Assembly: GCF_026210795.1 (NCBI RefSeq)
Contig: NC_089430.1
Coordinates: 992,001-1,056,000, forward strand
Direction of reading: 5' to 3'
Origin: Rhizophagus irregularis
Lineage: Eukaryota > Glomeromycota > Glomeromycetes > Glomerales > Glomeraceae
DNA length: 64,000 nt
Shown here: in pieces, positions 3,660-61,043 of the stretch
How positions within the stretch are numbered: the first letter of the stretch is position 1
Layout of the letters: each line of letters opens with the position of its first letter
The notes under the pieces: model-generated
Seen by the model: only the letters and a program-made list of their open reading frames with translations
The model's database searches: none
Told to the model about the DNA's origin: nothing
Position numbers and translations under genes: made by a program

Positions 3660-3752
3660 GCGGCTCCTGTACGAATTTAGTTTATATTTTTTATCCATTT
3701 GTAATGTGCATACAGTAATTGAAGATGGCTATAGTATAAGTAACATAACATC

Positions 3753-4151
3753 ATGTTGGACCGATTACCAGTAGAAATAGTCGAACGTATTGTTGCAAAG
3801 ATCCCAGATACTGACCTTATTGCAGCGAGTAAAGTAGATAGTGTGTGGTGGCAGGAGGTTCGTCAAGAAGCATATAAGAGATGGAAAAATTACGCTACTA
3901 CGATCGGGGATGTGTACTGGGAAATCCAGGCTCTTGGAAAGCGGTTTGAAAAGAGGGATATTGAGTGGATGACATTTGAAGATGTAAACGACACCTATAA
4001 AAACTGGATAGACCGCCTCACCGAGGATCAGCTTTATATTATGGAGAAAATGCTTAGGAATGAGATGGTTGTGAACCCCCAAGAAAGGGAAACCATAGAG
4101 CATGCATTAAGTGAACATAGATGGGGAGGCGATCCTTGGGGAGTGGAATGA
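3753..4151 (+). CDS. F-box-like protein (132 aa), C terminus altered
   Basis: The N terminus fits an F-box: LPVEIVERIVAKIPDTDLIA, then a Val/Trp-spaced helix and YKRW. Such a domain would recruit a host SCF ubiquitin ligase; that is established for F-box proteins in general and only inferred here. No substrate-binding repeats follow, so the rest is a short helical tail. Relative to copy 2 (20486-20902), an 11-bp deletion near 4138 changes the reading frame and ends the protein early. A 12-bp in-frame difference lies near 3910. The E3 fragment has a related ORF (54167-54604) next to its left terminus. Confidence 0.6.
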   Translation: MLDRLPVEIVERIVAKIPDTDLIAASKVDSVWWQEVRQEAYKRWKNYATTIGDVYWEIQALGKRFEKRDIEWMTFEDVNDTYKNWIDRLTEDQLYIMEKMLRNEMVVNPQERETIEHALSEHRWGGDPWGVE

Positions 4152-4705
4152 TTGGACTCAACAGGAGTAAGCATTTTGTACTTGACTTTCGTAGGAATTA
4201 CCCTGCAGAGTCATATTTTTTAGATCCGGCCGGCATTACCGCGTAATCCCAAATTACCTAAAAAGGAAATTTATGTTACACAGGGTTCCAAACGCATTCT
4301 TACCAAATCGATTTTTTGTGGAACGGGTATCGCCCAAAAAGGAAATGATCTACGTACCGCATGAAATCACGTGACACTCTACACATTTGTTCAGGGTATC
4401 ACGTGACATGAACTCCGTTCACATTTTCTGTAATACTGTATAATCCATAGTTTTTCCATGAATGCATTCTAGGCCAATAACCCAGTAACCTTATCATCAG
4501 GTATCCTTGCATTTTTTCGACAAGGACTGATGACCATGTAACCTTATCATCAGGTATCCTTTCATTTTTTCGACAAGGATTGATGACCATGTAACCTTAT
4601 CATCAGGTATCCTTGCATTTTTTAATAAGGACTGATGACCGTGTCACTTGGTTATTGTAAATTGAAGAAAACTATTAGGTATGTAGACACGTACAGAAAA
4701 AAGAC
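4152..4705. promoter_or_regulatory. intergenic region, likely promoter of the NPITGR gene
   Basis: There is no ORF worth calling in this 554-bp gap, which is conserved in copy 2 (20903-21431). It holds a short motif TCATATTTTTTAG shortly after the stop, two CACGTGAC boxes (about 4366 and 4400), and three tandem hairpin-forming repeats just upstream of the next gene. Conservation between copies, and the largest spacing in the element, point to a regulatory or replication role, but neither is shown. Confidence 0.4.
4485..4647 (+). repeat. three tandem about 58-bp hairpin units
   Basis: Each unit reads ATCATCAGGTATCCTTG, a short T-rich loop, then (C)AAGGACTGATGACC, so TCATCAG/TCCTTG pairs with CAAGGA/CTGATGA. 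The same three-unit array occurs in copy 2 at 21213-21370 with small changes, mostly in the loop. Confidence 0.75.
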
Positions 4706-5287
4706 ATGTCTTACCCTTATATAGCTAACCCTATAACTGGATGTCCAATTATTATCGGTGGAGATACCTTTAATCGAATAGTTATGGAATCCCATGATTA
4801 TATTGATGGAAGGCTTGTCCGTAGACAAACTGCACCTCCACCTGAAGAGCAACCTGTATATTTGAATACAGATACAGGACGTTATGTTCGACGTGGTACT
4901 AGAACATATCATAGACTGATTGAGAGTGACTATGAGGTAGTTGAGGATTACTACCTTGTCCATTATGAAGAAGAGGCGCTTATAAAGGAAATCATCAATG
5001 AAACACGCTATAATGAGGAAAATCTTGATGGGCAGCGGTTAACTTTCAATGATATACAACAAATCAGGGCCGCTATTCAGGCTGACCAAGATGAATATAA
5101 TGATTTTATCTTACAGCAAGATATGACTAACGGGACACCTTCCTCTGGTCCTTCCGGTCGTCCACGAACTTTGGAGGACCATACCCCGAGACTTGCAGAG
5201 CTTAATATTGAGTTGTGTAGGGAATGTCTCATGCCTGTAAGCCCAAGTGACTTAACGGACAAGTTGTGCAAGGACTGCTCCGAATAG
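4706..5287 (+). CDS. NPITGR-motif protein with C-terminal C2C2 zinc finger (193 aa)
   Basis: The N terminus holds NPITGCPIIIGGDTF (NPITGRPI in copy 2). This resembles the NPxTGRxI core of the short adaptor motif found in proteins of large DNA viruses and Polinton-like viruses; the flanking cysteines of the classic 2-cysteine form are missing. The middle is acidic. The C terminus has a four-cysteine zinc-binding pattern, CRECL ... CKDC, over about 20 residues. The start is at ATG 4706, directly after the hairpin array. In viruses such proteins are linked to virion or scaffold interactions; any role here is inference. The Arg-to-Cys change in the motif is specific to this copy. Confidence 0.55.
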   Translation: MSYPYIANPITGCPIIIGGDTFNRIVMESHDYIDGRLVRRQTAPPPEEQPVYLNTDTGRYVRRGTRTYHRLIESDYEVVEDYYLVHYEEEALIKEIINETRYNEENLDGQRLTFNDIQQIRAAIQADQDEYNDFILQQDMTNGTPSSGPSGRPRTLEDHTPRLAELNIELCRECLMPVSPSDLTDKLCKDCSE

Positions 5288-5332
5288 TTACTTAATTTTG
5301 AATAATTCTTTTTTACATAAAGAAAGATAGCC

Positions 5333-5893
5333 ATGTCAACATCAATCGTAATAAACCAATGCCAAAACTGTGGAGTAATCACTCCAAAAACAGCATATAG
5401 AGGATTATCCAGCGTGTTGTATAGACAGATTATAAAGAAGATTGGCGACGAGAGTGAACCTTTACAAGCCTTGGGACTTGCTAGGGATAAGTTAGTTCAG
5501 ATCATTCGTCGGGGAAGTAATGTGGACTTTACACAATTGTTTACACAAAAACTGGATATGAATATTATGGATGGAGAGCCATATGAAGATATTAGGAAGT
5601 GGCTTCTCGAACAGCTTATAGCCATAGGTTATGACAGTGGAGAAATTGCTTTATATCAATTTCTAAGGGATACATATCCAGATGGTATTGACAAGCCTTT
5701 CACTACATTCTATGAGAACTATGTAAATCATATAAGTAATCCAATGACTAAGAACTTTGCTTCTCGTGCTTTAGGAGCAATAGGGTTGAAGGCTAAGATG
5801 TTAAGGATTGACTTTGAAGGCCGTAAAAAAAGTGCTATGATTCTTAGAGCTTCTGCAGACGAATTACTTGATATTCTCACAAGATACTATTAA
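5333..5893 (+). CDS. conserved element protein, possible winged-helix domain (186 aa)
   Basis: This intact ORF starts 45 bp after the zinc-finger gene and has a near-identical partner at 22062-22622. The N terminus has a single CxxC (CQNC). The last third (FYENYVNH ... NFASRALGAIGL ... EGRKKSAMIL) resembles the winged-helix segment at the end of viral primase-helicases, so DNA binding is possible. I do not recognise the family with confidence. Its 3' end overlaps the 3' end of the convergent ATPase gene by 17 bp, so the two transcripts must converge. Confidence 0.55.
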   Translation: MSTSIVINQCQNCGVITPKTAYRGLSSVLYRQIIKKIGDESEPLQALGLARDKLVQIIRRGSNVDFTQLFTQKLDMNIMDGEPYEDIRKWLLEQLIAIGYDSGEIALYQFLRDTYPDGIDKPFTTFYENYVNHISNPMTKNFASRALGAIGLKAKMLRIDFEGRKKSAMILRASADELLDILTRYY

Positions 5894-6635
5894 TCCCTAC
5901 TTGTAATGCTCGATGGTCCATGTGGCTCTTAGAAAAGATTTGTAGAAGGACTTCAATACCTTCTATTATTTGTTTATTATCCAGAGGGCAACTAGACTTC
6001 AGGGCTTCATATCGGGAGAATAACTCCTTCACATTCTCAGTTTTCAGAGTTTCAGTCTTTGCAGTCCTACCCTGTACTTTTGCTAAGAAATCCTGAAAGT
6101 CAGCTCCTAGGGTCTTACCAGAGAGTCCATAAGCTTCCCGAAAGACATATTTAATCCAGGTATCTGCATTCTTGGCTAAGACACCAGGTACAAGTAAATG
6201 TTGACATTCTTTAGGGGATGGAAATACCCGAGCAAATTCAATCAAGTGTCCACCTTTTTTTGCTTCAAATACAGCTTTCTGACCATAGGGACTAAACTTG
6301 GATCGAACTGTGATTGAACTGGGTTCAGACTGAGATCGAACTGGATTCAAACTTGGATCAAACTGAGATTGAACTGAGATCGAACTAGGATTGAACTGAG
6401 ATTGCTCTGTGATCGAACTGAGACTAGTATCCCATCTTACTCGAATGGACAGTGGATCACTTTTGGACCGTCTAAGATCAAACACTACAAATTCACGTTG
6501 CAGAGTAAGATCATCAATTACTGGTGCTAATGACTCTGATTCTTCTGTATATAGGCGGATGATTCTCTTGGTATCTGTAAGGCTCCCATGACCTCCATGC
6601 AGTGAGATGTAGTTAACATTTTCTCGAATAGCCTT

Positions 6636-6933
6636 CACTGGTCAAAATCTATGCTATCGGGTATATATCGGGCACCTATATATCGGTAATAAATCGGATA
6701 TATATCGGGCAGTTACATATATCGGGTACACATCGGGTACCCAATATATCACCGATACACACTTGTCAAAATCTATGCTATCGGGTATATATCGGGCACC
6801 TATATATCGGTAATAAATCGGATATATATCGGGCAGTTACATATATCGGGTACACATCGGGTACCCAATATATTACCGATACACACTGGTCAAAATCTAT
6901 GCTATCGGTTATATATCGGGCATCTATATATCG
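6636..6933 (+). repeat. terminal 124-bp unit tandemly repeated (about 2.4 copies)
   Basis: The CACTGGTCAAAATCTATGC end sequence recurs at 6636, 6760 (CACTTGTC) and 6884, a period of 124 bp. Each unit carries several ATATCGGG motifs, the kind of short subterminal motif a CACTA-encoded DNA-binding protein would recognise. The outermost copy carries the target duplication, so the inner ones are duplicated termini. Confidence 0.85.
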
Positions 6934-7179
6934 GTGAAAAGTGAAATGTTTCGGCATAGTATGTCATATATATGACTTACAGTACGGTATAGGTATGCCC
7001 CGAAATCCATCAGAAAATTGGGATTGAATCCGTTCAATCCGATAATTTTTTTATTATTATACCGAATTTTTTTTTCGGATTTTAATTCAAGCCATAATAT
7101 ATTCATTAGTTTATAGTTTATTATATAGTAATATGAAATTATTTATTAATTTGAACCAAAATAAAATTATTATGTTTGT

Positions 7180-7985
7180 TTAAAGTAAACCCACCCCACA
7201 CACTACCCATATCCCAATAAAAAAGAAACATTAGTATGTTTCTTCAAAGTAAATTCCGAAACTCCCTACACATTTACCCAATATCCCAAATAATCCAGGA
7301 AGCTGAAATCTACAAAAAAGAATAAAAAAAGAAACGTTAGTATGTTTCTTCAAAGTAAATTCCAAAAGAACCCACCCTCACACACTTACCCAATATCCCA
7401 AATAATCCAAGAATCCAAAATCTACAATTGTAAAAAATAAAAAAAGAAACGTTAGTACGTTTCTTCAAAGTAAATTCCGAAAAAACCCACCCCCACACAC
7501 TTACAAAGAACCCGGAAAGACGAAATCTACAAAAAAGAATAAAAAAAGAAACGTTAGTACATTTCTTCAAAGTAAATTCCGAAAAAACCCACCCCCACAC
7601 ACTTACAAAGAACCCGGGAAGATGAAATCTACAAAAAAAGAATAAAAAGAAACGTAAGTTCGTTTCTTCAAAGTAAATTCTGAAAGAACTCCCACACATT
7701 TACCTAATATCCCAAATAATCCAGGAAGCCGAAATCTACAATAAAGAATAAAAAAGGAAACGTTAGTATGTTTCTTCAAAGTAAATTCCGAAAAAACCCA
7801 CCCCCACACACTTACAAAGAACCCGGGAAGACGAAATCTACAAAAAAGAATAAAAAAAGAAACGTTAGTACGTTTCTTCAAAGTAAATTCCAAAAGAACC
7901 CACCCCACACACTTACCCAATATCCCAAATAATCCAAGAAGCCGAAGTCTACAAAAAAGAATAAAGAGAAACGTTAGAAAAATAA
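7180..7985 (-). repeat. tandem microexon/intron-like modules, minus strand
   Basis: About eight units of roughly 90-120 bp. Read on the minus strand, each has a hairpin GAAACGTACTAACGTTTC, a T-rich tract ending in TTTTTTGTAG, a short exon-like block (ATTTCGTCTTCCCGGGTTC-type), then GTAAGTGTGTG. These match a branch-point, a 3' splice site, a microexon and a 5' splice site in order. Long reading frames through this stretch are translations of the repeat and are not called as proteins. Confidence 0.65.
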
Positions 7986-8359
7986 ATAAATAAATAAAAA
8001 CAAAAAAGAAACGAAATCCCCTCCTCCTAACTTACCTTCAAGCCGAAATCCAGTTCCAGGAAGGTGTTCCCTTAGAAAAACGAACGTCCTAAGCCGTTTA
8101 AGCCGAATTCCGAAGGGGAAGACCGAAGGAGAATAAAAAATATTTTTTTTTAAAAAAAAAATAAAAAAAAATAGGATTTGACCAGATTATCTGATCAATC
8201 CGGTCAATCCAGTCATCCGTGTAACATCCGATCTAGGATTGCTTGCCGAAACTAGGGTTTCGCAAAATCACCCGAAGTTTCGGTTAGGATCCAATCATTT
8301 ATTGATCGTTGATAATCTAATAAAAATCAATACTTAAAAAAAAAATATTTTATTTTTTA

Positions 8360-9245
8360 TTTTTTTTTGTAGGTCGGACTCCTATTTTTTGTAGAATGCC
8401 GGACCTTGGAGACCAGGACGAACCGTCGAACCAATAAAGGTAATGTGGGAGAAGGAGACCGGGGTTATGTGTTTTACTGTAATTAAGAAACGTTTTTAAC
8501 GTTTCTTTCTTTTTTTTGTAGAACTAGGACGCCGGACTCTTGGAAACGAACCCGGACTTGGAATGTGTGTAAGGAAAGAGGAAGGGTTAATATTAAAGAA
8601 ACATTTTTAACGTTTCTAAAAACGTTTCTTTCTTAATTTTTTTTATAGAACTAGGACGCCGGACTCTTGGAAGCGAACCCGGACTTGGATAATGTAAGGA
8701 ATGGGAAGAGGGGAAATGTTTTTTTAATATTATGTAAAGAAACGTACTTACGTTTCTTTCTTTATTTTTTTGTAGGGCTAGGACGCCGGACTCTTGAAAA
8801 TGAATCCGGACTTGGATAATGTTAGGAATAGGGGAGGGAATTGGTTTTTTGAATATTAAAGAAACGTACTAACGTTTCTTTCTTTGTTTTTTTGTAGGAC
8901 TAGGACGCCGGACTCTTAGAAGGTGGACTTACACTTGATGTAAGTTGGGTGGGTGTAATGTGTCATGTGTGTTAAATAAGAAACGTTTCTAACGTTTCTT
9001 TCTTCTTTTTGTAGGAAAGCCAGACGAAATTACGAACCGAACTTTTGAGTGAAGGTATTAATGGGAGAGAAATTTACTTCTCTTAGTAATATTACTAATG
9101 TTACATTTTTTTCTTTTATTGTAGGAACGCCAGACGAATTATACGAACCGGACTTTAGTGAAAGGTAAATGGGGAAGGGGAGTTTCACGTTTATTTTTTT
9201 TCCTTAGTAACATTACTTTTTTTTTCTTTTGTAGGTTCTTGGAGT
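8360..9245 (+). repeat. tandem microexon/intron-like modules, plus strand
   Basis: About seven units on the plus strand, diverging from the minus-strand array. The typical unit is TTTTTTTGTAG, then an exon-like block (ACTAGGACGCCGGACTCTTGG and about 20 more bases), then GTAAGG or GTAAGT, then a purine-rich spacer and a hairpin such as AAAGAAACGTACTAACGTTTCTTT (about 8858-8881). The exon-like blocks drift gradually from unit to unit, as expected of old serial duplication. Confidence 0.65.
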
Positions 9246-10635
9246 TTCTAAATAAATATTTATTATTTGATATTACGAAAAATCAGTGATTTTACCATGT
9301 TGACTGGTATGCATGATAGGTGACAAATAGGCTACCGATAGGTACCCGATTTGTGACTAATTGGTATATTTAAGTAGGGTTTTGTATTATTTAAAGCGAT
9401 AAAGAGTTTAACTTGCAGTGTAATTCTAGTATAAATAGTATAAATGCATTTTTTTTATTAATTATAATAATCCGGTTAAAATCCATGGCCCAATCAGAAT
9501 TTGTTATTGTAATCAGGCGATTGATCACATGATTTCGGTATTTATATTTCGCACTTTGTTTATTTTTTTTTTCTTTCGTAAAAGCCCTTTCTCTTAAACT
9601 TTTTATTTAAAACAAACTCTTTACTTAGTTATTATGAAATAATATTAATATATATTTTTTTTTTATTTTTATATTTAGAAATAAACATAAAGGTATATTT
9701 TCATTATGCTTGTTTTTTTCTTTTTATATATACATTTTCTATTGACGTTCTAATACTTTTTTTTCTTTTCTCTCACTAATGTTTTCTACCACTTAACATT
9801 TTCTATTAATATTAAATACTACTAACATGTTTTTATTAACATTCTCCTATTAACATTTTCTATTTTACTAACTTTTCTTTCTTCCTACTAACATTTTTAC
9901 TAATATTTTCTATATTTACCACTAACGTTTTTATTAACATTTCTATTTTATTTTCTCCTATTAATTAATATACTTACTAATATTTTCACTGATATTTCTT
10001 TTAAATAATAAACAGATATAACAAAACAAGCAAAGAGGTAATTTTATTATCATTGCTACTTTCAGTAGAACTTAACATATTACATAGTATAATTATGTTC
10101 AACTTTATTTGATTTTACGTAGCAGATAGTGTAAGATTTGTATTATTGCTTTTATGTAAATAAATTTATAAATTTTAATAAAATTGAATTTCATTTAGCC
10201 CAAATTAAAATAAAAAAAAGAGATATAAATCTATTAGTTTTAATATGAAATTGTCAAACGTATACAATAAAAATATATATTACCAATATTTTACATATTT
10301 TACTACCCGATATATGTGTGTTAAATGTATGATATCTATAATATATATCACTGATATTTTACTACACGATATGTGTGTGTTAAATGTATGATATCTATAA
10401 GATATGTCACTGATATTTTACTACCCGATATGTGTGTGTTAAATGTATGATATCTATAAGATATGTCACTGATATTTGACTACCCGATATGTGTAAGATG
10501 TATATATGATGTTTACATGATGTGTCACCGATTTTCTACATTTATACTACACATATCAGGTACCAGATATGTGTAGTATTGTTAAATATCATACACATAT
10601 ATTACATATATTATACACATATCAGGTACCCGATA
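9246..10635. other. AT-rich right half of the CACTA element with 64-bp tandem repeats
   Basis: No gene seen. 9640-10020 is T-rich with recurring ACTAACATTTT-like words. 10290-10510 has about four repeats of roughly 64 bp containing CCGATATGTGTGTGTTAAATGTATGATATCTATA, the right-hand subterminal repeats of the element. Confidence 0.6.
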
Positions 10636-11165
10636 TGTATCCAATAGCACCAATTTTGACCAGTGCTTAGGAATGGCAAAGAATCTTTGAGCTACATAAA
10701 TACATGAAATATTTTTGTGTCGTCCATGTGTAAAGTAACCAGTGATGAGATCCTGGATTTTTTTAGGTGCATCCATCAGATCCTCGAAGATTACCACAGT
10801 AGCTTGAGTAGGGTCAAAGGAGTCAATCTCTGGAATCTCACTATGGGTTACTGCAGTGAATGGGATCTTCTCCTCTTCGAAAAAAATCATGTACAACTGC
10901 CCACTTCGGCTCGTCAAGATATCTGCCAACTAAAAGTACTGCATCACATAGTACATACCGATTACCATCCTCCTTTGCTTTCTTGTCACCCATTAACAAA
11001 TTAATGATCATAGTTGTCTTACCTGAGTCTGAGCTACCTGCTACGGCTAATCGAAAGGGCCATGATGGAGCAAACTCATTGCCTTGTCTTGAGTCGGTCG
11101 TGTATTCGTCCAAATTGTATACATAAAGATCCATTTGAATTTTATTCTAACTTAGTTTAAATACT

Positions 11166-11963
11166 ATGTCGACATCAACACCAATTCCAGTTTATACTCC
11201 TTCAGAACCTACTGGACCGCCTCCTGCACACTTGGTCAATGAAAAAGACGATGATGAATTAGTTAGAATACTAAAGGCTCATGCAAATTTATTGACTACC
11301 AGGGGTCGTTTAACTGTTGATTCAGAGATACAGGAGGCAAATAATCAAATCAAACATATTATTAATATATTAATGTATCGCTGTAAAGCAAAACATGAAG
11401 AACTTGGTATTACAAAAGATTTGTTAGTTTTTGCACAAGGTAAGATAAATGCATTTGATGAAACGTTTACTAATTTAGAACGTCAATTAGTTATTATACG
11501 TGCTGCCAATGATAATTTCATAGAAGAAAACCATAACCTGCAAAGAGATTATGATACTATGGTAGAGCTTCGTCGACGGGCTATAGGTGAACGTAATCAG
11601 GCACGACATGAACGTAATGTATTACAAGCAGATTATACTCAAGCAGTAAGGGATCGTAATGAGGCTCAAAATGCTGTGAATCGTGGTAATATCCTTTTAA
11701 ATCATTGGCGGCTGAGGGCTACTCGGACTGGAGGATAACTTGTATTGGTTAATGCGCAACTTGGACAGGTTAATGCACAGCTAGCACATGCTAATAATAG
11801 GGTGCGTTTTGGGATTCAGACATTAGGGAGACTTAGAAATAGACTTTTCCAACAGATAGCTGCTCTTAGAATTCAGGTACAATGGTTTCGAATTAGACAA
11901 TTGAACCCTCCTCCACCTATATTAAACAATCCACTAGAGACGATATGGCTACCACTGCGATAG
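11166..11963 (+). pseudogene. coiled-coil protein upstream of Gag, one nonsense codon
   Basis: The start is ATG 11166, 31 bp from the divergent ATPase start, so the two probably share a promoter. The frame would encode about 265 residues: a Pro-rich N terminus, then long heptad-like helices rich in Arg, Asn, Gln and Glu, then a basic Pro-rich end. TAA at 11736-11738 interrupts it where copy 2 has CAA. The stop overlaps the start of the Gag-like ORF (ATG 11945) by 19 bp, which suggests coupled expression. The position and coil suggest a structural or assembly partner of Gag; this is inference. Confidence 0.55.
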
Positions 11964-13375
11964 GATTGCCGATTTTTGAGGGTAAAGCTACTGATGATAT
12001 TGATACATTTGTTAGGCTTTATATGGGTTATCTTGATACTATTAATCTTAACCCATATGCTGCTGGAGGGCCACCAGAGTCTTGGAAAAGAGCTATGGGT
12101 ATACTTAGAAGCTGCATGGCTGGTGAAGCGGCTGAATGGTTTGATCGAGAAATTACAGGAAAAAATTGGGAACTTTCTGGTATCACTTCAGCTGGTGGAG
12201 CTAATTTAGCTGCTTTTGTAGCATTAGTAATACCAGAAGCTGCAGGAGGACCAAATGCAGGTACCTATGTAAATGGGTCTGAAGCACAAATCTATTCAAG
12301 AGATCCAGTTAATGCATTAGTAACTATTAGAGCAGCATTTATTCCTACTCATGATTTAATGGGTGGAGATGAAGCTTGGAAAAGAGCTGGTGCTCGTTTG
12401 ACAGATAGAGCTGCTCCGGCTACTGCAGATGCTGGTGTTGCTGTTAATAATAATCATCCTATAGTTTTTCCAGGTATTAAACCTAATCAGGCACTTTATT
12501 GGCTTAGAACACAATTTCCAACTGTTTTAGATGAAAAGAAACGTATCCGTTTTAACAGTCTTTACCAGGAAAATGAGCCAGTTGATGCATTTTATAGAAC
12601 TGTAAAGAGGGCTGGAAAATTATTAAGACTAACTGATGATCTTATTATCGACCAGTTCTTTAGAGGTCTTTCGGCTGATAATATTTTTGAAGCAGAAAGG
12701 TTTCACAATCTTAATCCTGATGACTTGGTTAAACATCTGAGAAATTTAAAACGGAGAAGGGCTGAAATGCGCTTGGGGTTACAAGATAGAAATCGGCGAC
12801 TTTGAGCAGATTACAGTAATGCAACTCAACCTCCATTAGGAAAACAGGAACCTGTCGTACTGACATCAAAGTCAACTGAGGTTACTCAAGAACAATTACA
12901 AGAGTTGCTTAAGGCTCAGGCTGAAGAACTTACCAAGAATTTTCAGGTGCAATTTAAACAATTACAGGCTCGGCCAGTTCGTAATCCACCAGTCTATAGA
13001 CAGCAGATTAAACCTGTTCGACCAAAACCACAGAGACGTGTTATTCAGGATCCTCAGGATCCTGATTGGGATGATGGTTATGTAGATCATGATGTTGGTG
13101 ATGATCCTGATGCTCCTGAGTGGACTTTGGATGATCATCAAAATGCTATTGATCTTATTATGGGATATAAACGTGGGACGTCTAAAATACTTACAAAACA
13201 ACTTCAGAAGGCTAAAGATAGACGTGATGATCTGGATTTGGCCTGAGCAATGAGAAACCTCGATCTTAATGATGATGCTATGGACATTGATACTGCGAGT
13301 TTTGGTGAAAAGGTAGAATTGAGAGAAAAAGATGGTGATGTCTATATGGTTCGTGTTGGGTCAAAAAAAAAGTAG
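11945..13375 (+). pseudogene. retrotransposon Gag-like protein, two nonsense codons
   Basis: The N-terminal half looks like a Ty3/Gypsy-type Gag core: IFEGKATDDIDTFVRLYMGY, WKRAMGILRSCMAGEAAEWF, and a second conserved block with VDAFYRTVKRAGKLLRL and IDQFFRGLS. The C-terminal half is basic, then acidic, with no zinc knuckle. TGA at 12803-12805 (CAA in copy 2) and TGA at 13244-13246 (CGA in copy 2) break the frame. The frame ends at TAG 13373-13375 immediately after a run of nine A. No reverse transcriptase follows. Gag normally self-assembles into a particle shell; a shell role here is inference. Confidence 0.65.
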
Positions 13376-14112
13376 GTTCGAGTATCTCAAAACTTCTTAA
13401 GTCGTCCCCAAATAAGACAGCAGTTAGCTCTTCTAGTGTGCCATTGAAAGGCAAAGCAACCCCTGTTAAGATTCCTGTGAAAGTTACTGGTAGTAAGTCT
13501 ACACCTGCAAAAGCTGTTACTAAGAATGACTTATTAAGCCTGTTAAGGTCTGCAGACTTTAGGAAATTACTCCGTGAGATTCTTCAGGAGGAGTTATTGT
13601 CTGCTAGAAAAGTCACAGAGATTCCGGAGGACCTAGTTGAGGAGGAACAAGAAGAGGATATCAGGGTAGACGATCCTATGGATATTGACATAGCTCGTTT
13701 AGAGAATACTAAAGATCTTTTAGCACTGGATGGGGAGGTTAATGGAATAGCAATTCAGTGTTTAGCAGACACTTGTGCTAATGCGTCTTTTATTCAGAGA
13801 GAAGCTACTGAGGAATTAGGGTTGGATATCGACAAGAGTATTACATACAACATATTTGGTGCTTCAGGAACAGGTAGGACATTCAGCATGGTAAAGGGAG
13901 TGTTAATCAAACTTACCCCTGATTATGCTATCACTGAGGATCTTGCAGTCTTAAGTGGTTACAAGCATAGGGAAATTGGGTTAAGCCGAACGTGTCTGAA
14001 ACGTTACAATTATAATATCCATGAATCACGTAAACATATAGCCTTTACCTGTGATGGGAAGAATGTTTTTATCCCGATAGTTCCTGATGCTAATCGAGAG
14101 GATAAAAAATAA
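13372..14112 (+). CDS. retropepsin-like aspartic protease, probably made by frameshift from Gag
   Basis: This frame is open from the A-run at the end of Gag and has no convincing start codon of its own. The core CLADTCANASFI, then a hydrophobic flap-like stretch and EIGLSRTCLKRYNYNIH, follows the order of retropepsin domains; the usual DTG/DSG is DTC here. An N-terminal basic, Ser/Pro-rich linker precedes it. Relative to Gag it lies in the -1 frame in this copy, with A AAA AAG available as slippery sequence. Whether the Cys variant is catalytically active is unclear. The 3' end faces the integrase stop 24 bp away. Confidence 0.6.
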   Translation, partial: VGSSISKLLKSSPNKTAVSSSSVPLKGKATPVKIPVKVTGSKSTPAKAVTKNDLLSLLRSADFRKLLREILQEELLSARKVTEIPEDLVEEEQEEDIRVDDPMDIDIARLENTKDLLALDGEVNGIAIQCLADTCANASFIQREATEELGLDIDKSITYNIFGASGTGRTFSMVKGVLIKLTPDYAITEDLAVLSGYKHREIGLSRTCLKRYNYNIHESRKHIAFTCDGKNVFIPIVPDANREDKK

Positions 14113-14136
14113 GACCCTTTAATTCTTCTATTTTTT

Positions 14137-15264
14137 TTATTCCCAAAATTTGCAAATTAAGTCAGGGACATCCTCCTTCAATTGGTCAGCAGGTTCCCAA
14201 GTAGCCTCAGTGTCTGGATAGCGCTCCCACTTAACCAAATACTGGTCTTGACCTTTTCTAATGCGATGCCGAAGTATCTGCTCAGGAACAAATCTTTCAG
14301 GTTGTCCTCTTATCACAGAGTCAGGTGGAGGCTTTTCATTAATAGGAACTACTTGCAATTCCTTTCGGGTATATGCACATCTGGATACACCTAATCGACC
14401 ATGTGGTCCATTAAGGAGATATGTAGGAGGCTGTTCGGGTGAGAGTATCATTTTTTTGATTACACGAATGTTTGGGTTCCATCTTATGTCTCCTGTACGG
14501 AATTTTCCGTGAAGTTTATTACCAAGTACTGAGATAGGTTCATCTAACTTGACTCTGACACGTGCTCCTTCAGAGAGGAGATCCGTCTTTTTTGACACTT
14601 TGGGTGACCCTGTCGGAATGTCTGGGGGATTTCTCTGCCAGAGTTCATTTACTTTACTCACTATATTATGGAAATCTTCTGACCATTCCACGGATGTCAC
14701 CCCAATTTTCAACTCCTGTGCTACCATTCGTTTAAGAAGGGGTTCTTGGATGGCTTGGATAGCTCTTTCAGCATAAGATTGCTGTTTATGCCTTCCTGGC
14801 TCTCCGAACCTCATCATTACCCCTAGGCTGTTCAGGAAAAAATCACGTACCTGGTCGTTAGTGAATTCTGATCTGGAGTCTGTCTCCAGTCGGTGTGTTG
14901 GAGGCTTGATACGATTTCTTTTGTAGATTTTGACAAACCCGTTTAGAACTCTATTTGCAGTCTTATCCTTTAGGGGTTCTGCATCAACTCTCTTTCCTGC
15001 AACTTCTACCACTACGAGAAAATAGTGGAATCCTTTGGGGTCAACTGGCATCTCTGCAAGATCTGCCTGATGTGTTGCATTTGGTTTCCATACAATTACC
15101 TTTGGGCGTTCTGTTGACTTCTCCTTTAGGGGCTTTTTGTATAGGTTGTAGTGCTCCTCACCTTTTAGAATTCGTGCTGGTACTCCAGAGAGATTGTAGT
15201 ATTTGTAATAATTCTCTAAATGCGACATATTACGACAAATTAAAGGAATGGTTTTAGACTTCAA
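14137..15264 (-). CDS. retroviral-type integrase with C-terminal chromodomain (375 aa)
   Basis: This is an rve-fold integrase. The catalytic triad is placed at Asp68 (HQADLAEMP), Asp129 (ETDSRSEF) and Glu166 (SYAERAI), spacing D-x60-D-x36-E. The C terminus is a chromodomain with YLVKWERYPDTEATWEP. Polinton integrases have this architecture and insert the element with 6-bp target duplications; the chromodomain likely targets histone marks. The frame is intact. It starts 8 bp from the divergent zinc-ribbon gene, so the two probably share a bidirectional promoter. Confidence 0.9.
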   Translation of the reverse strand: MKSKTIPLICRNMSHLENYYKYYNLSGVPARILKGEEHYNLYKKPLKEKSTERPKVIVWKPNATHQADLAEMPVDPKGFHYFLVVVEVAGKRVDAEPLKDKTANRVLNGFVKIYKRNRIKPPTHRLETDSRSEFTNDQVRDFFLNSLGVMMRFGEPGRHKQQSYAERAIQAIQEPLLKRMVAQELKIGVTSVEWSEDFHNIVSKVNELWQRNPPDIPTGSPKVSKKTDLLSEGARVRVKLDEPISVLGNKLHGKFRTGDIRWNPNIRVIKKMILSPEQPPTYLLNGPHGRLGVSRCAYTRKELQVVPINEKPPPDSVIRGQPERFVPEQILRHRIRKGQDQYLVKWERYPDTEATWEPADQLKEDVPDLICKFWE

Positions 15265-15272
15265 ATCTTAAA

Positions 15273-15593
15273 ATGACACGTTTTTACTGCCTAAAGTGCA
15301 AGAAGGAAACTGAGACGGCTAGTGAAATACAAGATATGACTACAAATGGGCGTTACCGGCTGCATAATGACTGCACAATTTGTGGTATGCATAAGAATAC
15401 TTTTACTGGAATAGACTGGGTGATCAAGAAGAAGACTAAGGAGAAAAGGAAAGAAACCGCTGCTAAGAGACAGCAGACGGCTTATAATCGGCAATGCAAA
15501 AAACTTGGACAGAAAATCTTAGATTCTGATGACGCGTGTAAACAGTGTATTGATAAATGCCTTAAGGAGGCAAAAAAGAGGAAGACGGATTAG
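15273..15593 (+). CDS. small zinc-ribbon basic protein, DUF5679-like (106 aa)
   Basis: The N terminus FYCLKCKKETE ... NGRYRLHNDCTICGMHK gives C-x2-C ... C-x2-C zinc-ribbon spacing and resembles the small DUF5679-type proteins common in Polinton-like and large DNA viruses. The C-terminal half is strongly basic (many Lys and Arg) with an additional CKQCIDKC. Binding to DNA or packaging of the genome is a reasonable inference. It is the last gene before the right terminal repeat. Confidence 0.65.
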   Translation: MTRFYCLKCKKETETASEIQDMTTNGRYRLHNDCTICGMHKNTFTGIDWVIKKKTKEKRKETAAKRQQTAYNRQCKKLGQKILDSDDACKQCIDKCLKEAKKRKTD

Positions 15594-15630: not shown

Positions 15631-16204
15631 CAATACCCATTGTTCAATTACTTATTTTTTCTGACGGGGAAAGTGGCCATAGTTCGGTGGTCATAGTTCG
15701 GCGGTCATAGTTTGGTGTCCCAGGTATGTAGATAAAGGGTGGTCATAGTTCGGCGGTCATAGTTCGGTGGTCATAGTTCGGCGGTCATAGTTCGGTGGCA
15801 TAGTTCGGTGTCTCAGGTAAGTAGATAAAGGGTGGTCATAGCTTAAATCGGGTTTTGGAGCCTGAGGGGCTAACTAAGGTGGCCATAGTATTATCATAAG
15901 TTTTTTGAACTGTGGCCAGTACTATGACCGGATATTCTGTCTGATTTCAGCTTTATTCGCGTTTTTATCCACTTTTTAGTAGTCTGGTCATAGTGGTCAT
16001 AGTGGTCATAGTAGTTTTATATATAAGAAAAAATGGATAAAAAAAAGGAGTTGGAAAGTAGTGTGACCAGCCATGGCCACTGTGGCCATGGTAGTAGTAT
16101 ATATGGGGGATTCCTGATCCCCCGTAGGGGGGATATAGGTACTGCGACGGGTCGTAGACCCGGAGGTGGGTGGTGCTTGCACCTCCCACATCCAGCCTGA
16201 TGAC
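15631..16204 (+). repeat. right terminal repeat of Polinton E1
   Basis: The repeat begins at CAATACCCATTGTTCAATTACTT and ends with the conserved block (about 16110-16204) containing TAGGTACTGCGACGGGTCG and CTTGCACCTCCCACATCCAG. Both ends match the repeats at 28581-29047 and, inverted, 53683-54152. The interior differs: here it is filled with tandem GGTCATAGTTCGGCGGTCATAG words (15673-15835) and GTGGTCATA words (about 15984-16015). Confidence 0.85.
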
Positions 16205-16220
16205 TGGGAATCCACCACCT

Positions 16221-17705
16221 ATGACAACATCTAAGCAGGATCACATTATATCGACTCTTCCACCCCTATTTCAATTCATAAAGGACACTTACCTCATAGT
16301 AAAAAATCATATAACCGACCTACCTGTTCAAGAATTTTATAGGGTATATACTTCATACTGTGAAACTCATTGCATCTCACCATTATCAAAGATAAACGCT
16401 TCTAGAATCCTATCAAATGAGTTGAGTATAAATAGTAATCGGACTTATATAAATAAAAAGTTAACCCGAGTATATAGCATATCCAGGGAGGATCTTTACA
16501 AGAAATATCTCGGCAAAAAATGGATCCACGAAACAGATGAAATCAATATAGAAGGAATAGATGTAGAAACTCCTGAGAAGCCCGCATCTGATCCAAATGC
16601 CTTGGTGAAATTCTTGGCAAATATATATAATCCAGCTAGTAAATCACAAGTAGATCAAGAGGAAGTGGAGCTAGTTGTTGAGAAACCTGCTGAGGAAAAA
16701 CCCGCTCCTGTTGAAGAAAAACCTACTGAAAAGCAACCAGTTGCTCAAAAGGCTCCTCCACCAGTACCACCTAAACCTGATTACTTGAAGGTAAAACCTG
16801 CACCTGTCATTAAAGAGGATCCTATTCCTGAGGAATCTCCAGCTCCCATAGAGTCAGATACTAATGAAATTATAGACAGTTTCTCAGACTGTTATCTATC
16901 TGATGAGAAACCTGATCAAGAAAATGAACCGCCTGCTGAGGAACCTGCATTTGAAGCTGATGATGACTACGACGTTTTAGATGACTTGCTATCTAACTCA
17001 GATCCTACAACTGCAGACCAAGTTCCTGAGCAACAACCCGAGTCTCCTGCAGAATCTTCAGCAAAATCCAAATCTCTCGCAGATTCCAAATCTTCAACAG
17101 AACCTTTAGTAGAACTGACTCTCAAAGAGCAACCTATCCCAGAACCCAACACAGAACTAGAAGTTGACTGGGATCCTGAACCAAAGGAAGGTACTCGAGC
17201 ACACTGGGCTTGGCATGAAAGGCACCGATGGGATCATAAGCCATGGGTCAAGAATTCAAAGGACCAGGTCTTCAATGATCTCTACAATACAGGTAAGGAT
17301 TTATGGGCTAAGTACCAAAACGCGTCAGATGAGTATGACTGGGAAATACTTGCGTTTGAAGTAGAGGAATGTCCCACAACGCGTATTGAGGACGAGTACC
17401 AGTACTACTTTAGGGAGGTAGTAGACCACTTCAAGGACTGGATCGAATATAATGGGAACTCACCTAAAACACCTAGCCGTAAAGAACTCGCAAATCTAAT
17501 AAGAGTATACAAGGAGGATCGTGATGCCGAGATTATCCCTACTACTTCTGGTTATGAAACTATGAAGATGAATAAAGGTAAGGCACGAGAAATCCCAGAG
17601 GAACATCCAAAAACTGATATGGAACGTGAATGGGAGGCCGCCAATGGAATCATCGATGACTGGGACGAAGAGGATACTGAGGGCGCTATCAACGACATAT
17701 TGTAA
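16221..17705 (+). CDS. C-terminal part of D5-like primase-helicase plus acidic tail (5' truncated)
   Basis: The frame is also open through 16170-16220, but that part lies in E1's terminal repeat, so ATG 16221 is the first start inside E2 and is probably not the ancestral one. Residues about 10-110 (FIKDTYLIV, LPVQEFYRVYTSYCE, PLSKINASRILSNEL, then basic residues and RVYSISREDLYKKY) resemble the winged-helix tail of D5/SF3 primase-helicases. A long Pro/Glu-rich disordered region and a Trp-rich charged domain follow. The ATPase core of the helicase is missing here; its N-terminal neighbour in E3 is seen at 63382-64000. Confidence 0.55.
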   Translation: MTTSKQDHIISTLPPLFQFIKDTYLIVKNHITDLPVQEFYRVYTSYCETHCISPLSKINASRILSNELSINSNRTYINKKLTRVYSISREDLYKKYLGKKWIHETDEINIEGIDVETPEKPASDPNALVKFLANIYNPASKSQVDQEEVELVVEKPAEEKPAPVEEKPTEKQPVAQKAPPPVPPKPDYLKVKPAPVIKEDPIPEESPAPIESDTNEIIDSFSDCYLSDEKPDQENEPPAEEPAFEADDDYDVLDDLLSNSDPTTADQVPEQQPESPAESSAKSKSLADSKSSTEPLVELTLKEQPIPEPNTELEVDWDPEPKEGTRAHWAWHERHRWDHKPWVKNSKDQVFNDLYNTGKDLWAKYQNASDEYDWEILAFEVEECPTTRIEDEYQYYFREVVDHFKDWIEYNGNSPKTPSRKELANLIRVYKEDRDAEIIPTTSGYETMKMNKGKAREIPEEHPKTDMEREWEAANGIIDDWDEEDTEGAINDIL

Positions 17706-17789: not shown

Positions 17790-19646
17790 ATGCAATACTC
17801 AAGAATCGCCCGCACTTTACCAACACGACCTGACATCAAGGAACTTCAGTATTCCGGTACCCGCTTTTCCAGAGGAGCTATTGCCAGACTCAGTCAGACT
17901 CTCCAGGCGCGATTTCCAGATAGAAAGTTCCAGATCCTACTTCCTTATGAAAACTGGAAACCCGGTGGATGAACATCAGGAAACCAACCAGCCAGCCTCT
18001 TCTCACTCTTGGACCACTATGATGAAGTACAACTACCGGATGATGCAGATTCTGATTACTTTGAACGATTCATAATTTATGTGAGACATGCTCCACCGGT
18101 TGCAGGGGGATGCAATGGGGAGCTAAATGATTGCCTGTATGAATGCCTGAAGCATATCTATGGTATATTCTCTAAAATACCTGAGACTATAAAAAAGCCT
18201 GAATATATCAAAAAGGCATTAGGTCTCAATCGTGATGCTCCAGTTCCAGTCTCATATATGGATAAGATTGAACAACTTGCAGGAAGCCTTGCACTTAATA
18301 TTGTAGGGGATTCCACTCAAATTTCCAAGAGCAAATCTGACAGACGTGCAACCCTCATCCTGTCTGAAGGCCACTACTCTCTTGCACTGAATCCTGGAAG
18401 ACTTCACCCTAGTAAATTAGATAGAAAACAAAAGTCTCCCTTTGTTTATCGTGAAGATGGGGTTAATAATGTAGTGACAATATACAATGGTAAGACAGTT
18501 AAGTCTCTTACAGTTGGACAGTTTCAGAAAGGTAAGAACTCTGATAGTTACTCCTTCATCCCTATTGAGAAGAATCGTAAAACTGGAATATATGAAACAC
18601 TTGAGGAAACATACCAGAGGATCCATGAAGAGCGGGATTCCTTTCTACAAGCTACAAAGAAGTTCAGTCTAGGAATCGACTTATCTTACCACAACTGGTC
18701 GTACAAGAGAACTGCTCTCTGGCTTTTTGAACGGTTTAGTGTAAGTGTTCCAGCTAATGATCCTCTTGATCCAGTCGAAGCAGAGTGGATAAGTGATGCA
18801 ATGATGGGAGGTCTTATCTGGGCAGATAATGAATGGAAGGGCTATGGAAGACAATACAACGTGACAAGTTTGTATCCAAGTATTCAGCAATCGAATGCTA
18901 ACTTTCCAATCCAACAAGGTAAGTTTCAAATACTCAAAGACTTTGTAGACCACAGAGGTTATGCCTTGTATGAATTATTTCGTGCTAAGGTAAGTGGTAA
19001 TGACATTCTCTTCTGACATAATAAGAGGGGAGTCTATACATTCATTGACTTACAACGAGCAAAGAAACTTGGTCTTGATATACAGTTAATCCAGGATGGA
19101 AAGCCAAATGCCTTGATATATGACAGAGAAGCAAGAATTCCTGGGACTGTAATATTTGGTGAGTATGTTCACTTTCTCTTCAATATAAAGAACCAGGGTG
19201 GCGTGGCTAGTCGTATTGCAAAGAGAGTTCTCAATACATTATGGGGAGCACTCTGCCAGAGGAAACGCAATTACAAGACACTCACCACAGATCAAACAGA
19301 TCCATTCAAGTTTCCGGAAGGCCACACACTTGACTCCATCATACCAGTAGGATCTGACTAGTGGCAATTCCAATTCACAAACCCAGGTAGTCCCTTCAAG
19401 GGTGAGTATCCTAGGATTGCTCCATTCTTATTAGCACATGGACGGAAGATGACTTCAGAGTTATTAGAACCATATAAGGATAAAGTACGACGCATCCATA
19501 CAGATGGATTTATTCTAGAGGAACAGCCGAGTAGTCCTACACTTATCACTTGTCCAGAAAATGCATCCAAAGCATTGAAAGCTCTCAAGTTTGAAACCGC
19601 AGGATACTGCCATGTGAAAAATGCAAACAAGGTTATCTGGACATGA
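17790..19646 (+). pseudogene. B-family DNA polymerase with OTU-like N-terminal domain, three nonsense codons
   Basis: One continuous frame of about 618 codons carries TGA at 17970-17972, TGA at 19014-19016 and TAG at 19359-19361. Copy 1 has TGG, CGA and CAG at these sites, so each is a single transition. Motif A (YNVTSLYPS, with Asn in place of the metal-binding Asp), motif B (KRVLNTLWGAL) and motif C (RIHTDGF) are present. The OTU-like Cys (NDCLYECL) and His (GHYSLAL) are both kept. The Asp-to-Asn change in motif A would itself abolish polymerase activity. Confidence 0.8.
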
Positions 19647-19760: not shown

Positions 19761-20391
19761 TGTCAACATATGGGGACACGCACAGCAAAACAAGGGGATA
19801 GGATTTAAAAATTTTTTTTTGAGACTTCATTACAACTGTAATTTTTGGATAAATTGGAGCATAATTATCATATAAACTTAAGAAATTTTTTTTTGAGGCT
19901 ATCCCCTTGTTTTGCTGTGCTTATCCCCATATACTGAATTAGCAAGCATTATTAACCGCACTGACAGCATTAGTGATGAAGTTATTTATGATGCATCATG
20001 CAATCAGTTCACTATTGTTTCTGATGAAACTGTCCTCAAGATTATCCATGCATTAAAAGACACTATAGTAGTCACATTAGTATCTGGGTTTAGCAAAACC
20101 AGCTACCTTGTCCAGGATCATGTGAAGTATATCAAGAGAATCCAGACAGCAAAGTCTCCTGTATCATATGTGAAGTTCGTGGCCAGAAAACTCTTTCCAG
20201 ATAATGCAGCATATACTGCTAAGATAGCAAAGATTCGTGAATCATACAAGAATAAACAAGCTCTTTTAAACAAACTTGAGGCCCTCTTCGAGTTGTATTA
20301 TAATGTAACTAAGGACTCATTAACAGGTCCCCCAAAGCAAGCTGTCACTATGAATGAGGCTGAGAAAACCTTAGCAGAACTTCTTGCATAA
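19761..20391 (+). pseudogene. conserved 156-aa element protein, disrupted by MITE at codon 4
   Basis: This is the homologue of 3189-3659. The original start MSTY lies at 19761, then a 157-bp MITE (19772-19928) is inserted, and the rest of the frame resumes at 19929. A reading frame entering from the MITE could still produce most of the protein (ATG 19912), so partial function cannot be excluded. The remaining coding sequence has no stop and only a few substitutions. Confidence 0.7.
19772..19928. mobile_element. 157-bp MITE
   Basis: The ends are an imperfect 30-bp inverted repeat starting GGGGAYAMGCACAGCAAAAC (two mismatches), with a short AT-rich core. It is flanked by ATAT on both sides (19768-19771 and 19929-19932), and copy 1 at 3189-3210 shows the empty site with a single ATAT. 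The superfamily is not clear from these data; a TA or TATA preference would fit Tc1/Mariner-like or PIF-like relatives. Confidence 0.85.
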
Positions 20392-20485
20392 GCGGCTCCC
20401 CGTACGAATTTAGTTTATATTTTTTATCCATTTGTAATGGGCATACAGTAATTGAAGATGGCTATAGTATAAGTAACATAACATC

Positions 20486-20902
20486 ATGTTGGACCGATTA
20501 CCAGTAGAAATAGTTGAACGCATTGTTGCAAAGATCCCAGATACTGACCTTATTGCAGCGAGTAAAGTAGATAGTGTGTGGTGGCAGGAGGTTCGTCAAG
20601 AAGCATATAAGAGATGGAAAAATTACGCTACTACAATTGGGCATGTCCAAGCTCTTGGAAAGCCGTTTGAAAAAGGGAATATTGACTGGATATCATTTGA
20701 AGATGTAAACGACTTCTATAAAAGATGGATAGACCGCCTCACCGAGGATCAGCTTTATATTATGGAGAAAATGCTTAGGAATGGGATGGTTGTGAACCCC
20801 CAGGAAAGGGAAACTATAGAGCATGCATTAAGTGAACATAGATGGGGAGGCGATCCTTGGAGATTGGACTGGAAGTGGAATGATTGGACTCAACAGGAGT
20901 AA
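20486..20902 (+). CDS. F-box-like protein (138 aa)
   Basis: This is the full-length version of 3753-4151. The F-box-like segment is residues 1-45 (LPVEIVERIVAKIPDTDLIA, then WWQEVRQEAYKRW). The C terminus ends in a Trp-rich tail (WGGDPW, DWKWNDWTQQE) that copy 1 lost through an 11-bp deletion. By analogy with F-box proteins it may couple an element protein or host target to Skp1-type ubiquitin ligases. An alternative is that the motif is a generic helical fold. Confidence 0.6.
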   Translation: MLDRLPVEIVERIVAKIPDTDLIAASKVDSVWWQEVRQEAYKRWKNYATTIGHVQALGKPFEKGNIDWISFEDVNDFYKRWIDRLTEDQLYIMEKMLRNGMVVNPQERETIEHALSEHRWGGDPWRLDWKWNDWTQQE

Positions 20903-21431
20903 GCATTTTGTACTTGACTTTCGTAGGAATTACCCTGCAGAGTCATATTTTTTAGATCCGGCCGGCATTACCGCGTAATCCCGAATTACCGAAAAAGGAA
21001 ATTTATGTTACACAAGGTTCCAAACGCATTCTTACCAAATCGATTTTTTGTGGAACGGGTATCGCCCAAAAAGGAAATGATCTACGTACCGCATGAAATC
21101 ACGTGACACTCTACACATTTGTTCAGGGTATCACGTGGCATGAACTCCGTTCACATTTTCTGTAATATAATCCATAGTTTTTCCATGAATGCATTCTAGG
21201 CCAATAACCCAGTAACTTATTTATCAGGTATCCTTGCATTTTTTCGACAAGGATTAATGACCATGTAACCTTATCATCAGGTATCCTTGCATTTTTGATA
21301 AGGACTGATGACCATGTAACCTCATCATCAGGTATTCTTGTATTTTTTGATAAGGACTGATGACCATGTCACTTGGTTATTATAAATTGAAGAAAACTAT
21401 TAGATATGTAGACACATACAGAAAAAAAGAC
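20903..21431. promoter_or_regulatory. intergenic region with tandem hairpins, copy 2
   Basis: This 529-bp region parallels 4152-4705. It keeps the TCATATTTTTTAG motif, one CACGTGAC box and one CACGTGGC variant. The three hairpin units lie at 21213-21370, with loops shortened in two units but the stems kept. No gene seen. Confidence 0.4.
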
Positions 21432-22016
21432 ATGTCTTATCCTTATATAGCTAACCCTATAACTGGACGTCCTATTATTATCGGTGGAGATACCTTTAAT
21501 CGAATAGTTATGGAATCCCATGATTATATTGATGGAAGGCTTGTCCGTAGACAAACTGCACCTCCACCTGAAGAGCAACCTGTATATTTAAATACAGATA
21601 CAGGACGTTATGTTCGACGTGGTACTAGAACATATCATAGACTGATTGAGAGTGACGACTATGAGGTAGTTGAGGATTACTACCTTGTCCATTATGAAGA
21701 AGAGGCGCTTATAGAGGAAATCATCAATGAAACACGCTATAATGAGGAAAATCTTGATGGGCAGTGGTTAACTTTCAATGATATACAACAAATCAGGGCC
21801 GCTATTCAGGCTGACCAAGATGAATATGATGATTTTATCTTACAGCAAGATACGACTAACGGGACACCTTCCTCTGGTCCTTCCGGTCATCCACGAACTT
21901 TGGAGGACCATACCCTGAGACTTGCAGAGCTTAATATTGAGTTGTGTAGGGAATGTCTCATGCCTGTAAGCCCAAGTGACTTAACGGACAAGTTGTGCAA
22001 GGACTGCTCCGAATAG
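21432..22016 (+). CDS. NPITGR-motif protein with C-terminal C2C2 zinc finger (194 aa)
   Basis: The start is chosen at ATG 21432 (MSYPYIANPITGRPI), matching copy 1; the frame stays open upstream to 21360 but that part overlaps the hairpin region. This copy keeps the Arg of the NPITGR motif. The C-terminal CRECL ... CKDC pattern is intact. See the entry at 4706-5287 for the family argument. The 186-aa gene follows after 45 bp. Confidence 0.6.
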   Translation: MSYPYIANPITGRPIIIGGDTFNRIVMESHDYIDGRLVRRQTAPPPEEQPVYLNTDTGRYVRRGTRTYHRLIESDDYEVVEDYYLVHYEEEALIEEIINETRYNEENLDGQWLTFNDIQQIRAAIQADQDEYDDFILQQDTTNGTPSSGPSGHPRTLEDHTLRLAELNIELCRECLMPVSPSDLTDKLCKDCSE

Positions 22017-22061
22017 TTACTTAATTTTGAATAATTCTTTTTTACATAAAGAAAGATAGCC

Positions 22062-22622
22062 ATGTCAACATCAATCGTAATAAACCAGTGCCAAAACTGT
22101 GGAGTAATCACTCCAAAAACAGCACATAGAGGATTATCCAGTGTATTATACAGACAGATTATAAAGAAGATTAGTAATGAGAATGACCCTCTACAAGCCT
22201 TGGGACTTGCTAGGGATAAGTTAGTTCAGATCATTCGTCGGGCAAGTAATGTGGATTTTACACAATTGTTTACACAAAGACTGGATATGAAAATTATGGA
22301 TGGAGAGCCATATGAAGATATTAGGAAGTGTCTTCTTGAACAGCTTATAGCCATAGGTTGTGATAGTGGAGAAATTGCCTTATATCAATTTCTAAGGGAT
22401 ACATATCCAGATGGTATCGACGAGCCTTTCAATACATTCTATGAGAACTATGTAAATCATATAAGTAATTCAATGACTAAGAACTTTGCTTCTCGTGCTT
22501 TAGGAGTAATAGGGTTGAAGGCTAAGATGTTAAGGATTGACTTTGAAGGCCGTAAAAAAAGTGCTATGATTCTTAGAGCTTCTGCAGACGAATTACTTGA
22601 TATTCTCACAAGATACTATTAA
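22062..22622 (+). CDS. conserved element protein, possible winged-helix domain (186 aa)
   Basis: An intact partner of 5333-5893 with about a dozen amino-acid differences spread along the length, all conservative enough to keep the frame and the C-terminal NFASRALGVIGLKAKM and EGRKKSAMIL blocks. Its last 17 bases overlap the last bases of the convergent ATPase gene. Function not recognised. Confidence 0.55.
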   Translation: MSTSIVINQCQNCGVITPKTAHRGLSSVLYRQIIKKISNENDPLQALGLARDKLVQIIRRASNVDFTQLFTQRLDMKIMDGEPYEDIRKCLLEQLIAIGCDSGEIALYQFLRDTYPDGIDEPFNTFYENYVNHISNSMTKNFASRALGVIGLKAKMLRIDFEGRKKSAMILRASADELLDILTRYY

Positions 22623-50482: not shown

Positions 50483-50705
50483 TAAGATGATTATAACACA
50501 TAGTAATGATAAATATAGCAAGAATATAATAATAAATATATCATAATAATAAATATAGCAAGAATATAATAATAAATATATCATAAACTGCAAAATAAAA
50601 AAAACGTATATTACAATGTGTTCATATAAATTAAAATTGGTCAATAATAGAAAAAAACGGGTAATGATGAATTATGAAAAAATCAAAAATAGAAAGATTC
50701 TGGCT

Positions 50706-54152: not shown

Positions 54153-54166
54153 ATAAGTAACATACA

Positions 54167-55245: not shown

Positions 55246-55248
55246 AAG

Positions 55249-55262
55249 TGGTGATTCCTGCC
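55249..55262 (+). promoter_or_regulatory. probable tRNA primer-binding site
   Basis: TGGTGATTCCTGCC lies three bases after the 5' LTR. It begins TGG, the complement of a tRNA CCA end. The tRNA species was not identified. Confidence 0.6.
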
Positions 55263-61024: not shown

Positions 61025-61043
61025 ATAAGAAATAATTTTCAAA

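Follow-up and report, generated by a model that had tools for sequence, protein, structure and literature searches.

We analysed a 64,000-nucleotide stretch of the Rhizophagus irregularis genome (assembly GCF_026210795.1, contig NC_089430.1, positions 992,001 to 1,056,000; hereafter the window), which carries two damaged copies of a 14-15 kb Polinton, named subfamily A here, with a retroelement-type Gag-protease pair between its packaging-type ATPase and integrase genes. Copy 1 comprises, on the plus strand, the C-terminal part of a D5-like helicase gene (33-1112, an open reading frame (ORF) aligned with copy 2), PolB in two ORF pieces (1196-2320 and 2542-3075, assigned through the polymerase matches of an intact relative), and ORFs of 156 aa, F-box-like, 193 aa (2C_adapt) and 186 aa (winged-helix model) within 3189-5893. 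An A32-type ATPase on the minus strand (5877-11134), split by an insertion of ~4 kb (about 6640-10580), is followed on the plus strand by a coiled-coil ORF (11166-11738), Gag (11945-13374, with a capsid (CA) domain at 11945-12802, then an in-frame stop, and a run of nine A at 13363-13371 before the Gag end) and a retropepsin-like protease with a DTC motif (13438-14112). Then come an integrase with rve and chromo domains (14137-15264, minus), a small zinc-ribbon protein (15273-15593, plus; DUF5679 according to Pfam on its homologue in a sister subfamily) and the right terminal-repeat end (16120-16204, plus). The helicase gene of copy 2 is interrupted by copy 1, whose right end at 16204 abuts helicase codons (16120-16210).

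Copy 2 continues on the plus strand with the 3' part of the helicase gene cut by copy 1 (16205-17705), PolB in a broken frame (18009-19016), and ORFs of 159 aa, F-box-like, 218 aa (2C_adapt) and 186 aa (19912-22622). Its A32-type ATPase (22606-23829, minus) is open over 407 aa and matches Pox_A32 at 2.3e-9. The coiled-coil ORF (23861-24178, plus) has a frame broken past 24178, and Gag (24640-26094, plus; eight A at 26058-26065) is open only from 24790 to 26094. The protease frame (26027-26806, plus) overlaps the Gag end, and an rve and chromo integrase (26832-27959, minus) and the right terminal-repeat end (28950-29047, plus) complete the copy. The original prediction, made from these letters alone, had described one gene order shared by both copies, and we recovered the same order, namely ATPase (minus), coiled coil, Gag and protease (plus) and integrase (minus), here followed by the DUF5679-type small protein, with the integrase on the opposite strand in both and no reverse transcriptase ORF within either. 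The retropepsin-like ORF that it had named is a retropepsin homologue according to a Pfam run on copy 2 (Asp_protease_2, 1.9e-7). In the protein database, a match at 100% was to R. irregularis DAOM 197198.

A genome search with Gag yielded at least 98 matching stretches (97 of 294 candidates scored), either about 93% identical (subfamily A) or about 55% identical, the latter representing a sister subfamily B that has mostly open frames and includes intact copies; the ATPase, integrase and PolB matched 107, 110 and 122 stretches, respectively. An ATPase or integrase row lies within 6 kb of Gag in 94 of the 98 Gag rows, and neither is found within 20 kb in the other four. According to the genome tables, a Gag match is situated between the partners in 79 of 93 ATPase-integrase pairs no more than 7 kb apart, and when eight of the 14 remaining pairs were fetched, all eight contained the coiled coil, Gag and protease, often in broken frames. 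Considering these two counts together, the position of Gag between ATPase and integrase is not due to chance. Examination of intact relatives had been proposed earlier, and both the B copies read and the ATPase-integrase pairs reveal that intact copies keep Gag.

Two-stretch readings detected terminal inverted repeats with Gag inside in six of seven A/B elements (488, 484, 450, 588 and 518 bp at 99.2-99.7% identity, and 174 bp at 100%), and no such repeat was found in the seventh, an A copy on C11. Target duplications of 5 bp (TTAAT, GAATT and AGGAT) were present in three of the four elements with both ends read and absent from the fourth. Three B copies read ORF by ORF contain a helicase of 781-825 aa (DUF5906 and Pox_D5 matches), PolB (a 617-aa ORF in two of them, in pieces in the other), ORFs of 173/174 aa, 156 aa, F-box-like, 194 aa and 183 aa, the ATPase, a coiled coil of 234-237 aa, Gag (498 aa), the protease, an integrase of 363 aa, the zinc protein and a 171-aa ORF. 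The ATPase of B matches Pox_A32 at 1.4e-8; PolB of an intact relative matches DNA_pol_B_2 at 6.7e-6 (0.1 bit under the cut-off) and a PHROG DNA polymerase at 3.4e-5; and the integrases match rve at 1.6e-8 (A) and 6.7e-8 (B). The front half of the helicase differs among B copies (L017:4384-6858 versus L015:4519-6861) and the remainder is nearly identical, which is a module exchange.

The Gag capsid domain is predicted to adopt a retroviral CA fold, a result of the structure modelling that had been suggested earlier for this ORF. Its structure prediction (predicted local distance difference test (pLDDT) 77, predicted template modelling score (pTM) 0.64) matched only retroviral, Arc, PEG10 or MOAP1 capsids among the 50 chains listed (50/50), and superimposed on the dArc2 C-lobe at 2.2 A over 80 residues. 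When its profile was aligned using hhalign with the Gag of a gypsy long terminal repeat (LTR) retrotransposon located elsewhere in the window, a value of 92.2% and a score of 50.8 were obtained, and 30 shuffles reached at most 19.9. The CA stretch around Gag residues 100-150 is locally very variable among B copies (L016, L018 and L011). One TAG common in A-family Gags was considered as a sign of decay or read-through and rejected, being the ordinary Gag stop in copies with the frame '492'.

Of the 20 A/B loci examined at the Gag-protease junction, 13 gave both frames, with the protease at -1 in eight, +1 in three and the same frame in two; in the -1 cases the two genes overlap by 34-46 nt and Gag ends in AAA AAA AAG TAG/TAA. 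The A-run is 7 (one locus), 8 (five) or 9 (nine) long in A and 8 (one) or 9 (eleven) in B, overlapping loci being counted more than once, here and for the families described below. It is the sole run of at least eight A in the four A/B pairs scanned. We infer from this arrangement that the protease is probably produced by slippage at the A-run.

Comparison of 48 A-B pairs gave nonsynonymous (dN) and synonymous (dS) divergences of 0.070 and 0.536 for the protease (dN/dS 0.13), 0.551 and 1.619 for CA (0.34), 0.217 and 0.445 for Gag 340-498, and 0.368 and 0.642 for the coiled coil; the corresponding values were 0.050 and 0.701 for the ATPase (24 pairs; 0.07), 0.057 and 0.947 for the integrase (28 pairs; 0.06) and 0.065 and 0.806 for PolB (16 pairs; 0.08). 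In one A-B pair, changes at codon positions 1, 2 and 3 numbered 129, 98 and 175 of 303 in CA and 18, 13 and 52 of 217 in the protease. Since third positions are the most changed in both, together with the A-B ratios, Gag and protease are, on these codon patterns, under purifying selection between the subfamilies, and the check on selection across copies that had been proposed earlier thus gave a positive answer in the A-versus-B comparison. Within subfamilies, three pairs of A copies showed Gag dN of 0.002-0.009 and dS of 0.041-0.049, and pairs of B copies were looser (dN/dS of 0.029/0.087, 0.035/0.095 and 0.016/0.023, with 0.017/0.013 for CA of the last pair). Sliding-window ratios exceeded 1 at Gag 51-100 and 351-400 within B (broken copies included) and at coiled-coil residues 1-120 between A and B. 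Because CA dS between A and B (1.6) exceeds that of neighbouring genes (0.5-0.95), the CA segment has likely been exchanged between lineages, or may be older.

Two further families carry a related module. Family X, traced from a Gag-like ORF adjoining one B copy, has 450-bp inverted repeats (99.3% identical) spanning about 12.1 kb on C29, a 6-bp AT-rich duplication, PolB, an integrase on the minus strand (rve, 2.3e-9), and a single coiled coil-CA-CCHC-protease frame with a DTG motif. Gag of B matches Gag of X at 1e-21, and no match was found between PolB of A/B and that of X (E of 0.38 or more), whose PHROG DNA polymerase match (0.0033) is limited to a C-terminal piece. Gag-X lies within 8 kb of PolB-X in 32 of 39 PolB-X places and, in reverse, PolB-X is within the same distance of Gag-X in 31 of 40 Gag-X places. 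In family Y, an integrase on the minus strand (rve, 8.8e-7, below the cut-off) is head-to-head with a CCHC-containing Gag, followed by a DTG protease and a polymerase that is 34.5% identical to that of X over 1002 aa and has no polymerase family match in Pfam or PHROG; it is near Gag-Y in nine of ten places within 8 kb and in all ten within 20 kb. Like that of X, the polymerase of Y does not align with its A/B counterpart. No terminal repeat of Y was found in the stretch read. The CA model described above was made outside this family. The X and Y polymerases have an endonuclease VII-like insert (L045:6279 and L049). At the X junction, nine A lie within a single long frame in L043 and ten A accompany a frame shift in L034, with runs of 8 (two loci), 9 (six) and 10 (six) overall, and the Y junction has ten A (one locus) with the protease at -1; one additional run of at least eight A was present in each family.

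Neither the X copy nor the Y stretch that we read showed an ATPase, and therefore the Gag-ATPase pairing, which the original prediction had emphasised, is not a general one. A Polinton-type integrase is head-to-head with Gag within 2.5 kb in 19 of 20 distant Gag matches, and it is Gag beside this integrase that is the general feature. A/B have the ATPase and no CCHC, and X/Y have CCHC and no ATPase seen, an alternation suggestive of a swap, seen in few independent lineages. Outside the species, relatives from Entrophospora sp. SA101, Paraglomus brasilianum and R. diaphanus were found among 48 proteins; no match was found in viral contigs and phages.

The absence of a visible jelly-roll capsid, as claimed earlier, agrees with what we found, in that Pfam and ORF reading recognised no double-jelly-roll capsid or penton in A, B or X, and the three B copies read ORF by ORF had no unassigned ORF of double-jelly-roll capsid size. 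Structure modelling covered the 186-aa ORF, with the 156-, 174- and 193-aa ORFs and the helicase tail outside it; the 186-aa ORF was rejected as a concealed jelly roll, its model consisting largely of helices and including a winged-helix part (pLDDT 73.8, pTM 0.57, five models uneven). A PF04451 search of the genome gave no match, but neither did its control. Neither ORF reading nor Pfam detected a reverse transcriptase or RNase H in copies of A, B and X or in the stretch of Y that was read, in contrast to the gypsy element of the window (RVT_1, 2.4e-35). The Polintons of this fungus (Glomus intraradices) have been described as having no detectable major capsid protein (MCP), explained as loss, and were regarded as capsid-less transposons; the authors of PMC7805220, who state this, did not find an MCP in them either. 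Among 72 Polintons, a full MCP was reported in 46 and a split one in 13, and nine elements without MCP also had neither ATPase nor protease (PMC4028283), unlike the A/B elements, which keep an ATPase under constraint. The available portions of PMC8647823, PMC11075540, PMC6431247, PMC4409740 and PMC2836005 do not mention Gag in Polintons, and none was found in the literature searched (subscription papers outside its scope).

These elements resemble Polintons/Mavericks (polintoviruses) in their terminal inverted repeats, 5-bp target duplication, rve integrase, PolB, A32-type ATPase (A/B) and DUF5679 zinc protein, but have Gag, a retropepsin-like protease and a coiled coil instead of a recognised double-jelly-roll capsid, penton and adenovirus-type protease. 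With Ty3/gypsy (metavirid) LTR retrotransposons they share the CA fold, retropepsin-like protease, CCHC knuckle (X/Y) and overlapping protease frame at an A-run; unlike those, they have a DNA polymerase, inverted terminal repeats and an opposite-strand integrase, and no reverse transcriptase, RNase H or LTRs. Arc, PEG10 and MOAP1, whose domesticated Gag capsids have the same fold, are host genes, whereas Gag here belongs to a DNA transposon. Ginger elements are not known to carry PolB. Ginger2 integrases group with Polinton integrases, and no Gag is mentioned for Ginger2 in the available part of the same article (PMC2836005).

A recurrent chimera of a Polinton and a retroelement capsid module is well supported by these results, and we consider it probable that these Polintons, from an arbuscular mycorrhizal fungus, carry the Gag-protease module in place of jelly-roll capsid genes, with Gag as the shell. 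The earlier proposal of a Gag shell is thereby retained in part, with respect to the CA fold, the retropepsin homologue, the Polinton backbone with terminal repeats, the constraint, the lack of a jelly-roll candidate and the intact Gag-keeping relatives; among the copies read, the Gag-ATPase pairing is confined to A/B. In such an element, which would integrate through its own rve integrase and be replicated by its own PolB, Gag most likely forms the shell; the coiled-coil protein and Gag would assemble in a retrovirus-like manner around the replicated DNA, which the shell would thus enclose, and slippage at the end of Gag would supply the protease. The A32-type ATPase may aid DNA loading in A/B, and the Gag zinc knuckle may recruit DNA in X/Y. 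More tentatively, and short of an even chance in our estimate, a whole group of glomeromycotan Polintons could be regarded as mobile double-stranded DNA elements whose DNA, once copied by PolB, is packaged inside a retrovirus-like Gag shell by two loading modes, a motor ATPase (A/B) and a zinc knuckle (X/Y).

Some observations weigh against a Gag shell or lend themselves to other explanations. The A/B protease has a degenerate active-site motif, DTC rather than D-T/S-G (X and Y have DTG), and the A-B divergence of CA exceeds that of the enzymes; in a genome rich in gypsy elements, one of them within the window, Gag and protease might thus be an accessory pair taken from an LTR retrotransposon, hindering rival retrotransposons or protecting replicating DNA of an intranuclear element that has no shell. 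This appears rather unlikely, given that Gag is present in almost every pair examined and recurs across several families, and that the ATPase is strongly constrained, unlike the nine MCP-less elements of PMC4028283, in which ATPase and protease had been lost together. The missing ATPase in X and Y, their CCHC knuckle and the adjacency of Gag and integrase, which is the most constant feature, would also fit a coat on element DNA or on a protein-primed replication intermediate for nuclear import and integration, with no closed shell and no cell-to-cell transfer. We regard this as less probable again, since a complete CA fold, a coiled coil and a protease suit a multimeric shell and a packaging-type ATPase is kept in A/B.

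It is also conceivable that a jelly-roll capsid is present but too diverged to see, or is supplied in trans by another virus, Gag being secondary. The capsid proteins of Polintons have diverged strongly from one another (PMC4028283), and the small ORFs outside the modelling and the silent PF04451 control count on the same side; however, the size of the unassigned ORFs in B, the helical model of the 186-aa ORF and the same lack of a capsid gene in PMC7805220 make this improbable. Least credible, to the point of being nearly negligible, is a chance insertion of LTR-retrotransposon remnants. Gag and protease do belong to retroelement families, but the position that they share across 79 of 93 pairs, the constraint, the lack of reverse transcriptase and an own integrase on the other strand argue otherwise, and this explanation was rejected for A/B, where the position is common to two subfamilies.

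Elsewhere in the window, a piece of the right end of an element of this family, inverted and containing an F-box-like ORF, is located at 53683-54604. The gypsy retrotransposon (54754-63305) has open Gag-protease, reverse transcriptase-RNase H and integrase ORFs between repeats at 54754-55245 and 62813-63305 that are 99% identical. A Tnp2-type transposase (Transposase_21, 2.1e-14) is encoded on the minus strand at 43862-46120, and a tandem array with an 84-bp unit occupies 50541-51680.

If a Gag shell is indeed used, these elements might be DNA counterparts of LTR retrotransposons, with a DNA polymerase replacing reverse transcriptase, and would represent the first DNA element without reverse transcriptase to use a retroviral-type capsid in the literature searched, within the scope given above. 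The Gag module would also account for the capsid gene missing from R. irregularis Polintons, a gap stated in PMC7805220, and the replacement of capsids between virus realms would become directly testable in a culturable fungus.

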